Assembly: GCF_900070325.1 (NCBI RefSeq) | Contig: NZ_LN879430.1 | Location: forward strand, 891,001-955,000 | DNA from: Herbinix luporum | Lineage (GTDB): Bacteria; Bacillota; Clostridia; Lachnospirales; Lachnospiraceae | Reading direction: 5' to 3' | DNA: 64,000 nucleotides | Shown here: positions 26,068 to 48,637 of the stretch, one piece after another | Layout of the letters: the number at the start of each line of letters is the position of its first letter | How positions within the stretch are numbered: the first letter of the stretch is position 1 | The notes under the pieces: model-generated | The model's input: only the letters and a program-made list of their open reading frames with translations | Told to the model about the DNA's origin: nothing | The model's database searches: none | Program-made: the position numbers and the translations under genes

Positions 26068-26904
26068 ATGAGTGAATTAATAAAACCGGTTAAGAATGGC
26101 GTGATTGAACAGGCAAATCGGACCAGTACTGAAAGTAAAGCAAAAAATGAACTTGGCAAAGATGCTTTTTTGCAATTGCTTGTTACACAGATGAAGTATC
26201 AAGACCCATTAAACCCCAGTTCAAATACGGAATACATAGCCCAGCTGGCAACATTTTCCCAATTGGAACAGATGCAAAACATCAGTGCTATGACCTCTAC
26301 TTCCCAGGCTCTTAGCCTAGTAGGAAAGAATGTTATAGTAAAGACCAAAAGTGATTCGGGAGCTATAAATTATATCAGCGGTAAAGTGGATTTTGTAAAT
26401 ATGTCAAGCGGTAAGGCTCGTATTTCCATTAACGGTAATCTGTATTCTATCGATGATTTGGACAGTGTTATAGATGAGACTTATATTTTAGAGCAAGGAA
26501 GACCAGGTATAAAACAAAAGGTGGATTTGGAATATGACGCAGAAAAGCCAGAAGATCTTGTTTTTGAAGTATACATGGGTGAAGGTGATTCTGTGGCCAG
26601 TGATTTAGCTGTAATAGTGGATCAAACCTTGCTAGATTCTTCAGTGGTTAGTGTAAAAGACAACAAGGTAATCATCGATAAATCTGTATTTGAAAAGGCG
26701 CCAAACGGCATATACAATGTAAGTGTGATGTTTAATGACGTCCTCTTTACGGTAGTAAAAGATATGGTTACCGTAACAGTCAAAAATTCTACAATTGCAA
26801 AAGAGGATACACCTGAAGAAGCTAAAGAACCTGAAGGAGTAGATGATTTAGAATTTGTGGATAATGACGGTAATGAAGAAGAAGGTGCTATTTATGCAAC
26901 TTAA
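26068..26904 (+). CDS. flgD: Flagellar hook assembly scaffold FlgD
   Basis: Hook cap needed for FlgE polymerisation. The N-terminal FlgD signature GKDAFLQLLVTQMKYQDPLNP with EYIAQLATFSQLEQM is at about residues 30-75. The rest (to 278 aa) holds a beta-rich region and ends in an acidic tail of about 30 residues (EEAKEPEGVDDLEFVDNDGN). It is about twice the length of the B. subtilis protein but ordinary for clostridia. Confidence 0.93.
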   Translation: MSELIKPVKNGVIEQANRTSTESKAKNELGKDAFLQLLVTQMKYQDPLNPSSNTEYIAQLATFSQLEQMQNISAMTSTSQALSLVGKNVIVKTKSDSGAINYISGKVDFVNMSSGKARISINGNLYSIDDLDSVIDETYILEQGRPGIKQKVDLEYDAEKPEDLVFEVYMGEGDSVASDLAVIVDQTLLDSSVVSVKDNKVIIDKSVFEKAPNGIYNVSVMFNDVLFTVVKDMVTVTVKNSTIAKEDTPEEAKEPEGVDDLEFVDNDGNEEEGAIYAT

Positions 26905-26921
26905 AAAAGTGAGTGGTTATT

Positions 26922-27323
26922 ATGAGTAACATTCCAATTAACAAAATACCTTCCAGTCTGCCAGTGGCAAATAGAATAGGCAAAGGTAAAAATACCATCA
27001 CTGGTGGCAGTATACCAAATGCAGGAGTCCCTTTCCATGAGATATTAAAAGAAAAGCAAGCCGACATTAGGGGGGAAGAACTGAAGTTTTCCAAGCATGC
27101 CAATGAACGGCTGACCAGTAGAAATATAGATCTTACGGATGAGCAGTATAGAAGGCTTCAAATAGGAGCTCATAAAGCATCCTTGAAAGGGATAAGAGAA
27201 TCTTTGGTATTGGTAGACGATCTGGCATTTATCGTAAACATTAAAAATAATACAGTAATTACAGCGGTAAATGACGGGGAAGAAAAAATTTTTACTAATA
27301 TTGATGGTGCAGTAATCATTTAA
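26922..27323 (+). CDS. TIGR02530-type flagellar operon protein
   Basis: Small protein of 133 aa. The C-terminal 80 residues (KFSKHANERLTSRNI, ALVLVDDLAFIVNI-like strand and NTVITAVN) match the family of Gram-positive flagellar-operon proteins found only between flgD and flgE. Function is unknown; a hook-assembly role is likely from position. ATG 26922 is chosen; the ribosome site is weak (GAGTGG), suggesting coupling to flgD, whose stop is 17 bp upstream. Confidence 0.82.
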   Translation: MSNIPINKIPSSLPVANRIGKGKNTITGGSIPNAGVPFHEILKEKQADIRGEELKFSKHANERLTSRNIDLTDEQYRRLQIGAHKASLKGIRESLVLVDDLAFIVNIKNNTVITAVNDGEEKIFTNIDGAVII

Positions 27324-27408: not shown

Positions 27409-28869
27409 ATGATGAGAGCATTGTTTTCCGGTGTTTCCGGTTTAAAGGTACACCAGACTAAAATGGATGTAATAGGTAATAATATATCAAATGTAAATAC
27501 AATAGGTTTTAAATCCAGTTCGGTTACATTTTCAGACGTTTTTTATCAGACAATTCAAGGGGCAACCGGGCCTAATGCGGCAACCGGTACTACAGGAAGA
27601 AATGCCATGCAAATTGGTTTAGGAACAAATGTGGCTTCCATTACTACCTCAGTGGGAGTAACCGGTGCCTCACAAAGAACCGATAATCCTTTTGATGTTA
27701 TGATTGAAGGGGACGGATTCTTTATAGTTAACTATGGGGGAACAAATTACTTTACCAAAGCAGGATCCTTTGATGTAGATGCCAGCGGAACCTTATCTAC
27801 ACCTGCCGGTGCCGCTGTTATGGGATGGCAGGTTGACCCTAATGATCCCACTAAAACCGTAGCAGATACAGTCTCTCCTCTACAGATTATGTCTCCTGAA
27901 AACCTCTATGCAAATCCTGAAGCCACTACAGCGGCTTATATAACAGGTAATATAGACAGTAAGGATTCCCAGATTGCATATAATGCTACCGGTAAAATGG
28001 TTAGCTTAAGTTTTTATGATAATATGGGACATAGCTATAAAGCCGATATCAGGGTTAGACAGACTGAAGATGGAGGTACTAATGTATACGGGGTAGATAT
28101 TTTAGATATTAAAGATGAGACAGGTAAATCCATATTCGTTGTAGAAGAAATAGATGAAGACGGTAATATTACTTACGAGGCTTCAGGAATCACCCGTTTT
28201 AATTTTGGTAATGCCCAATATACTGCAGAAGTGAATGAACAAACAGGTGAGGTAACATTAGAAGCCACAGATACCGTGCTACTTACCTTTAACGGTTCTA
28301 CCGGTGCTTTTGTTAGTGTGGGAGATACAGGTGCAGACAGTGCCAGTAATAGTGTTACACTTTCAATTGTTGCAGACGGTGGTGGGGCCAATCCATTTAG
28401 ACCTATAGATGTGGATTTTTCAAAGATTACCATGTTCTCTAATAGCGGTAATTCTTCTTTAGAAGCCTTTAGGGGAAGTTTAGATGGTATCGGCGCAGGA
28501 AAAAAGGTAGGTAATATGACCGGTGTAAGTATTGACGCTTCCGGTAAAATATACGGCAGATATGATAACGGTGACAGCAGGCTTTTAGGACAGATTGCGG
28601 TGGCAACCTTTGCTAATCCGGCAGGTTTAGAAGCAGTGGGCAACAGTATGTTTGCAGCCACCCAAAACTCCGGTGATTTTGATGGAATCGGTCAAGATCC
28701 TGCCCAGGGTGGCGGAAGTCTAACAACCGGTGTATTAGAAATGTCTAACGTAGACCTGTCCCAACAATTTACCGACATGATTACCACCCAAAGAGGTTTC
28801 CAGGCAAACTCAAGAATTATTACTACATCAGACTCCCTTTTGGAAGAGCTTATTAATCTTAAGAGATAA
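27409..28869 (+). CDS. flgE: Flagellar hook protein FlgE
   Basis: Subunit of the extracellular hook. The N-terminal rod/hook signature (MMRALFSGVSGLKVHQTKMD, then IGNNISNVNTIGFKSS) and the C-terminal helix (LSQQFTDMITTQRGFQANSR) flank D1/D2 beta domains rich in Gly/Thr/Asn. At 486 aa it is a mid-size FlgE. Start follows AGGAGGT (27394-27400). A strong terminator-like hairpin follows the stop by 41 bp. Confidence 0.96.
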   Translation: MMRALFSGVSGLKVHQTKMDVIGNNISNVNTIGFKSSSVTFSDVFYQTIQGATGPNAATGTTGRNAMQIGLGTNVASITTSVGVTGASQRTDNPFDVMIEGDGFFIVNYGGTNYFTKAGSFDVDASGTLSTPAGAAVMGWQVDPNDPTKTVADTVSPLQIMSPENLYANPEATTAAYITGNIDSKDSQIAYNATGKMVSLSFYDNMGHSYKADIRVRQTEDGGTNVYGVDILDIKDETGKSIFVVEEIDEDGNITYEASGITRFNFGNAQYTAEVNEQTGEVTLEATDTVLLTFNGSTGAFVSVGDTGADSASNSVTLSIVADGGGANPFRPIDVDFSKITMFSNSGNSSLEAFRGSLDGIGAGKKVGNMTGVSIDASGKIYGRYDNGDSRLLGQIAVATFANPAGLEAVGNSMFAATQNSGDFDGIGQDPAQGGGSLTTGVLEMSNVDLSQQFTDMITTQRGFQANSRIITTSDSLLEELINLKR

Positions 28870-28910
28870 GGTATAAAAATTTAATATATCTATGCCATAA
28901 ATCAATAATG

Positions 28911-28941
28911 ATGGGTGGCAGATTGGCTGCCACCCATTTTT
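28911..28941 (+). terminator. Strong hairpin terminator between flgE and flbD
   Basis: An 11-bp perfect GC-rich stem ATGGGTGGCAG/CTGCCACCCAT (28911-28921 with 28927-28937), 5-nt loop, then TTTTT. It is among the best terminators in the window, yet flbD starts only 23 bp later with no space for a promoter. Confidence 0.88.
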
Positions 28942-28963
28942 AAAAGAGAGGATGGGGTATCCT

Positions 28964-29155
28964 GTGATTGAGGTTACAAGATTAAACGGAAAAAAATTAA
29001 CCGTAAATGCAGAATTGATTGAACGGGTGGAGGAATTACCGGATACAGTAATAACATTTACAACAGGAAATAAAATTATCGTAAAAGAAAGTAGACAAGA
29101 GGTAAAAAATTTAGTAATATTATACAAAAAGGAAGTTTTGTGTAGAGAATTGTAG
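28964..29155 (+). CDS. flbD: FlbD family flagellar protein
   Basis: Protein of 63 aa beginning MIEVTRLNGKKLTVN, the standard FlbD/SwrD start, with TVITFTTGNKIIVKES. In B. subtilis the equivalent SwrD (YlzI) raises motor power. GTG 28964 is preferred over ATG 28952, since the latter overlaps its would-be ribosome site and other family members start at this Val. It lies between flgE and motA, the usual place. Confidence 0.88.
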   Translation: MIEVTRLNGKKLTVNAELIERVEELPDTVITFTTGNKIIVKESRQEVKNLVILYKKEVLCREL

Positions 29156-47443: not shown

Positions 47444-47477
47444 AAATCCCCATAGAAAACTGATGGAAGGTGAAAGG

Positions 47478-47771
47478 ATGCGTGACAGGTTAATACCGCC
47501 TCTAGTTACACTGACAGCGGGTGCAATAACCTGCATAGTTGATATATACCATAAGGCTGAACTAATACCAAGCTTAAAGCGGCTATTATTAGTCCTTATT
47601 ATTTTTTATATTATTGGCCTTATTGCAAAGGCTATTATAGTAAAGACTTTGCAGCAAAAATCAAAAAACGATGACCAAGTAAATGATGATATAATGGCCG
47701 ATGATAATCATAATAATGATAATCATAATAATGATAATTATAATGATGATAATTATATAAAGAATGAATGA
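47478..47771 (+). CDS. Small membrane protein with Asn/Asp/His repeat tail
   Basis: 97 aa, not recognised. Two hydrophobic helices (about residues 5-22 and 35-58, LLLVLIIFYIIGLIAKAIIV) are followed by a tail of DNHNN/DNYND units encoded by a 15-bp tandem repeat. ATG 47478 follows GGAAGGTGA. It sits between cheD and sigD, a slot with no gene in B. subtilis. The His/Asp/Asn-rich tail could bind metal, but this is speculation. Confidence 0.6.
   Translation: MRDRLIPPLVTLTAGAITCIVDIYHKAELIPSLKRLLLVLIIFYIIGLIAKAIIVKTLQQKSKNDDQVNDDIMADDNHNNDNHNNDNYNDDNYIKNE
47703..47756 (+). repeat. 15-bp tandem repeat inside the cheD-sigD small gene
   Basis: Two identical units GATAATCATAATAAT (47703-47717, 47718-47732), a diverged third (47733-47747) and a partial fourth. 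Because the unit is 15 bp, copy-number change would keep the reading frame and add or remove five residues. Confidence 0.85.
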
Positions 47772-47869
47772 TAATAAAGAAGGCAAAGTAAAAGAATAGG
47801 AATGGCTAATAAAGAGAAAATTAAACTTAGGATATATAGCTTAAGATTTCCGGTTAATTAGGAGGCAGT

Positions 47870-48637
47870 ATGGATACTGATAACAAGCAGAAACTTTGGG
47901 AGGAATATTCCAAGAACAAGACTTTTGAACTTCGAGAAAGAATAATTATTGAATATGCTGGATTGGTTAAGCTTGTTGCAGGTCGCCTTAGTATGTATTT
48001 TGGATATAATGTGGAGTATGAAGATTTAGTCAGCTATGGCATTTTTGGTTTAATCGATGCCATTGATAAGTTTGATTATAGTAAAGGTTATAAATTTGAG
48101 ACTTATGCATCCTTAAGAATTCGTGGGGCAATTTTAGACCAGATACGTAAGTTGGATTGGATTCCCAGAAGCATACGTCAAAAAAAGCGAAAACTAGATA
48201 AAGCATATCAAACTCTTGAGGCAAGATATGGCAGAAATATTAGTGATGAAGATTTAGCAAAGGAGCTGGATATTTCTCTAAAAGAATTAGAAGACTGGCA
48301 AAATCAAACTAAGATTACAAATCTTATATCCTTAGAAGAATTTTTAGATCAAGGTAGTGAAGCTAAAACTGAACAGTATTTTGCCAATACCTTTGAACAA
48401 CCGGAAAGAATAGTGGAACAACAAGAGCTTAAGGAAATACTTGCCAAAACATTAGATGCATTAACTGAAAAGGAAAAAAAGGTTATAGTGCTTTACTATT
48501 ATGAGGACTTGACCTTGAAGGAAATAAGTAAGATCATGGGAGTTTCTGAATCTAGGGTATCACAATTGCATACAAAAGCATTGCAAAAAATGAAAGTAAA
48601 ATTAGGAGTGAATATGGATGTCCTTACTAGCTATTAA
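47870..48637 (+). CDS. sigD: Flagellar/motility sigma factor SigD (FliA)
   Basis: Sigma-28 directing late flagellar, chemotaxis and autolysin genes. Region 2 (EYEDLVSYGIFGLIDAIDKFD, split), region 3 (DWIPRSIRQKKRKLDKAYQ) and region 4.2 (GVSESRVSQLHTKALQKM) match FliA/WhiG-type factors. 255 aa. ATG follows TAGGAGGCAG. It is near the end of the fla/che run, as in B. subtilis. The anti-sigma FlgM is not in the window. Confidence 0.96.
   Translation: MDTDNKQKLWEEYSKNKTFELRERIIIEYAGLVKLVAGRLSMYFGYNVEYEDLVSYGIFGLIDAIDKFDYSKGYKFETYASLRIRGAILDQIRKLDWIPRSIRQKKRKLDKAYQTLEARYGRNISDEDLAKELDISLKELEDWQNQTKITNLISLEEFLDQGSEAKTEQYFANTFEQPERIVEQQELKEILAKTLDALTEKEKKVIVLYYYEDLTLKEISKIMGVSESRVSQLHTKALQKMKVKLGVNMDVLTSY

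Follow-up and report, generated by a model that had tools for sequence, protein, structure and literature searches.

A conserved hairpin behind the flagellar hook gene flgE of Herbinix luporum, a candidate 3′-end element of the flgE mRNA

Layout of the flgE–flbD junction

The window, by which we mean the whole 64,000-nt (64-kb) stretch of Herbinix luporum DNA analysed here, carries a flagellar gene cluster in which the hook gene flgE is separated from flbD by a spacer of 94 nt (Table 1). The top NCBIfam match of flgE is a FlgE model, at a score under that model's cut-off, and TIGR03506 is matched above its cut-off. Inside the spacer the arms ATGGGTGGCAG and CTGCCACCCAT form a perfect 11-bp stem with seven G-C pairs and a 5-nt loop, which is followed by TTTT and then by AAAAGA, and the GTG start of flbD is reached 22 nt past the end of the U-run. 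The nearest named relative, as judged by FlbD, is Herbinix hemicellulosilytica.

Table 1. Positions of the genes and RNA features around the junction, in window coordinates
Feature	Position	Strand	Remark
flgD-like gene	26068-26904	+	upstream part of the flagellar gene cluster
TIGR02530-family gene	26913-27323	+	between the flgD-like gene and flgE
flgE, flagellar hook protein, 486 aa	27409-28869	+	NCBIfam profile matches
Spacer from flgE stop to hairpin	28870-28910	+	holds GCCATAAATCA, related to the GCCATATATCAG element that part of the genus conserves
Conserved hairpin, 5′ arm	28911-28921	+	perfect stem; compensatory changes in relatives
Hairpin loop ATTGG	28922-28926	+	5 nt
Conserved hairpin, 3′ arm	28927-28937	+	perfect stem; compensatory changes in relatives
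Short U-run TTTT	28938-28941	+	unconserved within the genus; weak as a termination signal at best
flbD leader, 22 nt, with ribosome-binding region	28942-28963	+	sequence and fold prediction
flbD (swrD-like), 63 aa, GTG start	28964-29155	+	PF06289, E 6e-27
motA/motP-like gene	starts 29226	+	downstream of flbD
motB-like gene	starts 30019	+	downstream of flbD
fliL-like gene	starts 30866	+	downstream of flbD
fliM	starts 31458	+	downstream of flbD
Sigma factor gene	47870-48637	+	cluster extends this far

The hairpin of the window is confirmed as genuine. The fold of positions 28900-28975 has a z of −3.8, which none of 200 shuffles equalled, and when the 64 kb were scanned for perfect stems of at least 9 bp with loops of 3–10 nt, the other perfect stems had at most four G-C pairs. 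Moreover, a stem of at least 11 bp with seven G-C pairs appeared in none of 20 Markov-simulated windows. The original prediction, drawn from the letters of the window, had described an 11-bp GC-rich stem with a U-tract; the stem is as described, but the U-tract amounts to a short TTTT. A dispersed repeat or mobile hairpin was rejected because an exact pattern search of the 2.6-Mb, one-contig genome returned the hairpin as a single copy and a 131-bp stretch also matched once. A known RNA family was likewise rejected, since the window has no Rfam 15 match at the gathering threshold; a permissive Rfam search of 28800-29100 gave five sub-gathering matches, the best with an E of 0.18. A small hairpin is predicted at about 28949-28963, where it overlaps the ribosome-binding region of flbD, and a 15-bp tandem repeat, ATGATAATCATAATA, lies in about five copies at 47701-47777, at the end of an ORF at 47463-47771.

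Conservation of the hairpin and its place behind flgE

The order-level set consisted of 152 loci, which are best search matches and hence clumped by kinship. L110 and L121, with no flgE match, and L152, with no flbD match, were taken out, and the remaining 149 loci gave 120 distinct flgE–flbD spacers, the window's included, of which 117 were tested and three longer than 480 nt were left out. A hairpin of −15 kcal/mol or better was present in 100 of the 117 spacers (window included), z was −3 or lower in 95 of the 117 with 12 shuffles each, and the other 17 spacers had no strong hairpin. At the genus level, 29 of 32 loci carried a strong hairpin, those without one being L012, L031 and L095/L115. 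The same recognisable hairpin, GGGTGGCAG...CTGCCACCC or close to it, was seen in 24 of the 32, and in five loci (L010, L011, L016, L023 and L026) a strong hairpin of other sequence took its place. Within the genus the central G-C pairs are nearly invariant and compensatory changes are found in the lower stem. Covariation was scored in an alignment of the 24 genus hairpins that are alike in sequence and in one of 16 rows that were picked for carrying an upstream element described below; for the 16 rows the score was reached by 0 of 500 shuffles and both-side changes in 5 of 14 pairs by 9 of 500, and for the 24 rows the score was reached by 3 of 500 and the number of both-side-changed pairs by 54 of 500, with the proviso that kinship among rows can beat such shuffles even without structure. 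Beyond the genus the hairpin sequence is often wholly different, for example GGGGAACTGTGTTTCATAGTTCCCC in one group and the arms GGGAACCGG...CCGGTTCCC in another. The spacers of L062 and L093, which are Lachnospiraceae MAGs, measure 1213 and 1139 nt, and are repeat-rich and closely alike.

For the phylum, 77 loci were taken from 189 genomes with flbD, namely 30 best matches and 47 picked by hand, mostly one per family; six loci without an flgE match and one with a 4-nt gap were excluded, which left 68 distinct spacers. A search with the family also gave a match in Thermotoga maritima. A hairpin of −15 or better occurred in 56 of the 68, z was −2 or lower in 52, and 49 folded better than all 40 of their shuffles. 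Because the first caller had missed the hairpin of L162, whose large loop was seen by eye, the count was repeated with longer loops allowed, and a strong hairpin was then found in 59 of the 68. By this recount 45 of the 53 sampled families have at least one member with the hairpin and 8 have none, the locus with the 4-nt gap being scored as a hairpin-less family; the GC-rich spacers of L193, L211, L214 and L217, though scored as strong, fold no better than their own shuffles. Most of the sampled lineages of the phylum thus retain a strong stem-loop shortly behind the flgE stop codon even as its sequence is replaced, and this conservation of place and shape is unusually deep. Absence of the hairpin from relatives, which the original prediction had named as a refuting outcome, is contradicted, and the hairpin persists even where the U-run is missing.

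We counted hairpins gene by gene in the 100 nt after each stop codon, using only loci in which the gene was found and the full 100 nt were available. In the same operons a strong hairpin followed flgE in 70 of 79 loci and the TIGR02530 gene in 6 of 75, and the counts were 0 of 78 for flbD, 1 of 77 for motA, 0 of 76 for motB, 0 of 34 for fliL and 0 of 10 for flgD; among phylum loci with duplicates kept, the hairpin stood after flgE in 25 of 26 and after flbD in 3 of 26. Where the spacer measured 150 nt or more, the hairpin was closer to the flgE stop than to flbD in 27 of 30 cases (medians 51.5 and 142.5 nt, respectively). Spacer length correlated with the distance to flbD at a rho of 0.87 at the order level and 0.84 in the phylum, and with the distance to the flgE stop at 0.69 and 0.45; the stop distance also rises with spacer length, so the hairpin is not firmly bound to flgE. 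The hairpin core starts 10–21 nt (phylum) or 22–52 nt (order level) after the flgE stop, these being quartiles. In one genome with two tandem flgE copies (L238/L239, G450, contig 6), a U-less hairpin stands behind the first copy, where the next gene is the second flgE and not flbD. Therefore, the gene-by-gene counts, the hairpin distances and the first tandem copy together indicate that the hairpin goes with the 3′ end of flgE, but the second tandem copy, which adjoins flbD and has no hairpin, speaks against this.

Tails, promoters and competing readings

The tails of the hairpins were classified by U rules adopted from PMC8219983, in which a terminator has a U-run of at least 4 and at least 7 U in the 10 nt after the stem, and a stabiliser has a U-run of at most 3 and at most 5 U in 10 nt. 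Of the 100 strong order-level hairpins, 95 could be scored and five had no scorable GC core; counted from the GC core, which includes more U than counting from the full stem as in PMC8219983, 67 of the 95 tails were stabiliser-like, 22 intermediate and 6 terminator-like, and the 54 phylum tails divided into 45, 8 and 1. Thus, with tails mostly lacking a terminator-grade U-run, most flgE–flbD hairpins are unlikely to stop transcription alone. The window hairpin has the GC-rich stem and short loop of an intrinsic terminator, and its tail is intermediate: after the GC core, ATTTTTAAAA holds 5 U in a run of 5, paired U included, and after the 11-bp stem TTTTAAAAGA holds 4 U, so that the tail falls short of the terminator rule for U, and its U-run of 4–5 also exceeds what the stabiliser rule allows. 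Among the 24 aligned hairpins of the genus, 6 have a U-run of at least 4, and in the nearest relative, L004, the hairpin has no U-run at all. The original prediction had called the hairpin a strong terminator, a description that does not suit a U-run of only TTTT before AAAA that is not conserved in the genus; strong termination by the window hairpin is unlikely, and it might stop transcription in part.

Order-level tails nevertheless contain more U than the spacers they lie in (4.05 vs 2.86 per 10 nt, p = 6e-9), as do phylum tails (2.93 vs 2.35 per 10 nt, p = 0.03), and the excess peaks in the first three positions. There is a similar excess of A upstream (4.07 vs 3.14), which suggests that A-U extension of the stem contributes to the U excess, but the A and U excesses do not match position by position. 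Some order-level hairpins are likely to be partial terminators. At the order level, U content did not correlate with the length of the spacer. We also looked at 20 extra flgE loci, picked for an absent flbD or from families where it was missing, and within 110 nt a hairpin at −15 or lower was present in 13 of the 20. Ten of the 20 loci had no flbD within 280 nt of flgE, and by eye five of these (L231, L232, L234, L235 and L248) showed a hairpin with a run of at least 5 U, a contrast that is small and was noticed post hoc; L233 had four U, the hairpins of L236 and L238 lacked a U-run, and in L230 and L249 the caller gave no strong hairpin.

In a first competing reading, partial intrinsic termination, some polymerases would stop in the U-run and the rest would enter flbD, the ratio of flgE to the downstream genes being set by transcription and not by decay. 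The 11-bp GC-rich stem with its 4–5 U argues for it, together with the terminator-grade and intermediate tails at the order level and the U-runs of the flbD-less loci, and in R. cellulolyticum two tails of only three U still gave 9.4 and 32.8% termination (PMC9045158). The U-run, however, is unconserved in the genus and missing from the nearest relative, and although partial termination, which the original prediction had offered as an option, is possible for the intermediate tail of the window, most tails of relatives are stabiliser-like; we consider this reading rather unlikely, if the most serious of the competitors. A regulated attenuator, in which an upstream GCCATATATCA element would pair with the 5′ arm in competition with the hairpin, and flgE translation or a factor would control read-through, is very improbable. 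In the 16 genus rows selected for the element, pairing of the element with the 5′ arm is formed in 93.7% of cells, a value reached by 12 of 500 shuffles, and 9 of these 16 rows allow an upstream stem to be drawn; the covariation score, however, was reached by 125 of 500 shuffles for the pairing of element and 5′ arm and by 444 of 500 for the upstream stem, the element is seen in only part of the genus, and no Rfam match reached the gathering threshold. The antitermination option of the original prediction found no good support in these counts. As to the element itself, CTGATGTATG...GCCATATATCAG stands just before the hairpin in L018, L021, L022, L024, L025, L027, L030, L032 and L060, the window keeps only its second half in 28870-28910, and its GCCA, which could pair with the 5′ arm of the hairpin, is invariant in all 16 selected aligned rows.

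An operon boundary, with the hairpin ending one transcript and a promoter starting the flbD transcript, is equally hard to credit for the window. No sigma-A-like site (10 of 12, a TG counted as one) and no sigma-D-like site (TAAA, then at least 6 of 8 of GCCGATAT) was found on the + strand from flgE to flbD, and only 22 nt separate the U-run from flbD. The original prediction, which had seen no room for a promoter downstream of the hairpin, holds for this genome at these thresholds. Among the matches listed in a looser scan there was one 9/12 site at 28881-28909, which was rejected as a promoter because that grade is common by chance (91 sites vs 76 expected in 20 kb, both strands). In favour of a boundary, 17 of the 95 order-level loci have an extended −10 between hairpin and flbD, against 2.8 expected when single bases are shuffled. 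These are mostly relatives with longer spacers, one of them a genus member (L023), and in those lineages the operon may be split at this point; none of the 17, however, is among the 24 aligned genus hairpins. In L063, L065, L066, L074, L076, L077 and L078 a GGGGAACTGTGTTTCATAGTTCCCC-type hairpin directly abuts a TGnTATAAT-like extended −10, so that in these seven loci a hairpin and a likely promoter adjoin between flgE and flbD. Finally, the hairpin could be a translational insulator or a block to Rho in the untranslated spacer, and the short distance of the core from the flgE stop would suit this, but why the hairpin should then be the rule only after flgE among seven genes is left unexplained, and we give this reading hardly any credence.

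Proposed role and comparison with known systems

The hook protein is a high-copy product, and a hook holds about a hundred or more copies of FlgE. Among the three options of the original prediction, stabilisation of the flgE mRNA appears to fit best, and we think it probable that the hairpin serves as a 3′-end stabiliser or processing element of the flgE mRNA and not as a terminator of the operon, a function that we infer. The logic of a stabiliser would fit, because the hook needs many FlgE and the downstream products are presumably needed in smaller amounts. The long flagellar transcript would be made through the hairpin, and in the window the run of 4–5 U may contribute slight premature termination. 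An endoribonuclease, for which RNase Y has been suggested in the best-studied clostridial case, would then cut near or just downstream of the stem-loop, and the stem-loop would block 3′-to-5′ exonucleases at the flgE 3′ end, so that the upstream, flgE-bearing RNA would outlive the flbD-motAB-fliLM part. Hook protein would thereby be made in excess over the downstream products, and no separate promoter would be required.

In a wider and more tentative form, for which we would put the chances somewhat below even, a position-specific RNA element of old standing, free of fixed sequence and mostly without a U-run, would sit at the 3′ end of flgE in most families of the phylum that have flagella and would set the dose of hook protein. 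If this dose-setting is true, one long transcript can serve the hook, made in many copies, as well as the motor, switch and export genes, whose products are needed in few copies, unequal protein amounts from a single flagellar operon are explained without extra promoters, and the junction becomes a simple, testable example of phylum-wide selection that acts at a single place on nothing but the shape of an RNA. For hairpins inside operons in general, the U-run should be checked in relatives before a terminator is called. The best literature matches on the junction or on selective RNA processing and stabilisation (SRPS), mainly titles and abstract openings, described no hairpin at the 3′ end of flgE in Bacillota.

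With an intrinsic (Rho-independent) terminator the flgE hairpin shares the GC-rich stem and the short loop; it differs in having only a short U-run in the window and a short one or none in most relatives, and in that flbD begins 22 nt further without a recognisable promoter. It also resembles the internal terminators of ABC-importer operons in cellulolytic clostridia, which are likewise hairpins within operons with a reduced U content and which set the ratios of the flanking genes (PMC9045158). Those terminators, unlike most flgE hairpins, need a U-rich tail: as reported there for R. cellulolyticum, termination efficiency tracks poly(U) length, and a stem-loop stripped of its U tail failed to terminate transcription.

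The flgE hairpin seems most like the stem-loops of SRPS. A stable 3′ stem-loop stands close before co-directional genes of the operon, co-transcription being assumed from gene order. In the cip-cel operon of Ruminiclostridium (Clostridium) cellulolyticum, SRPS stem-loops are described as stable structures at gene 3′ ends in a long operon for a multi-subunit machine (PMC4423207, PMC10311766), which is also the situation of flgE. Of 33 stem-loops that lie close to processing sites within operons of that clostridium, 28 have no U-run, and 3′-end stem-loops accompany higher levels of their own gene (PMC4423207); correspondingly, most flgE–flbD hairpins lack a U-run and the upstream gene would be expected in excess. 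These stem-loops are presented both as cleavage signals and as protectors of ends, with RNase Y as the suggested nuclease (PMC10311766). Moreover, the SRPS operons computed for C. cellulolyticum (SLOFE, PMC8219983) include one flagellar biosynthesis operon, 1018; the passage on this operon gives no gene name, and the main text makes no mention of flgE. The cip-cel stem-loops were compared among seven Clostridium species, and the flgE hairpin recurs at one and the same junction across a phylum.
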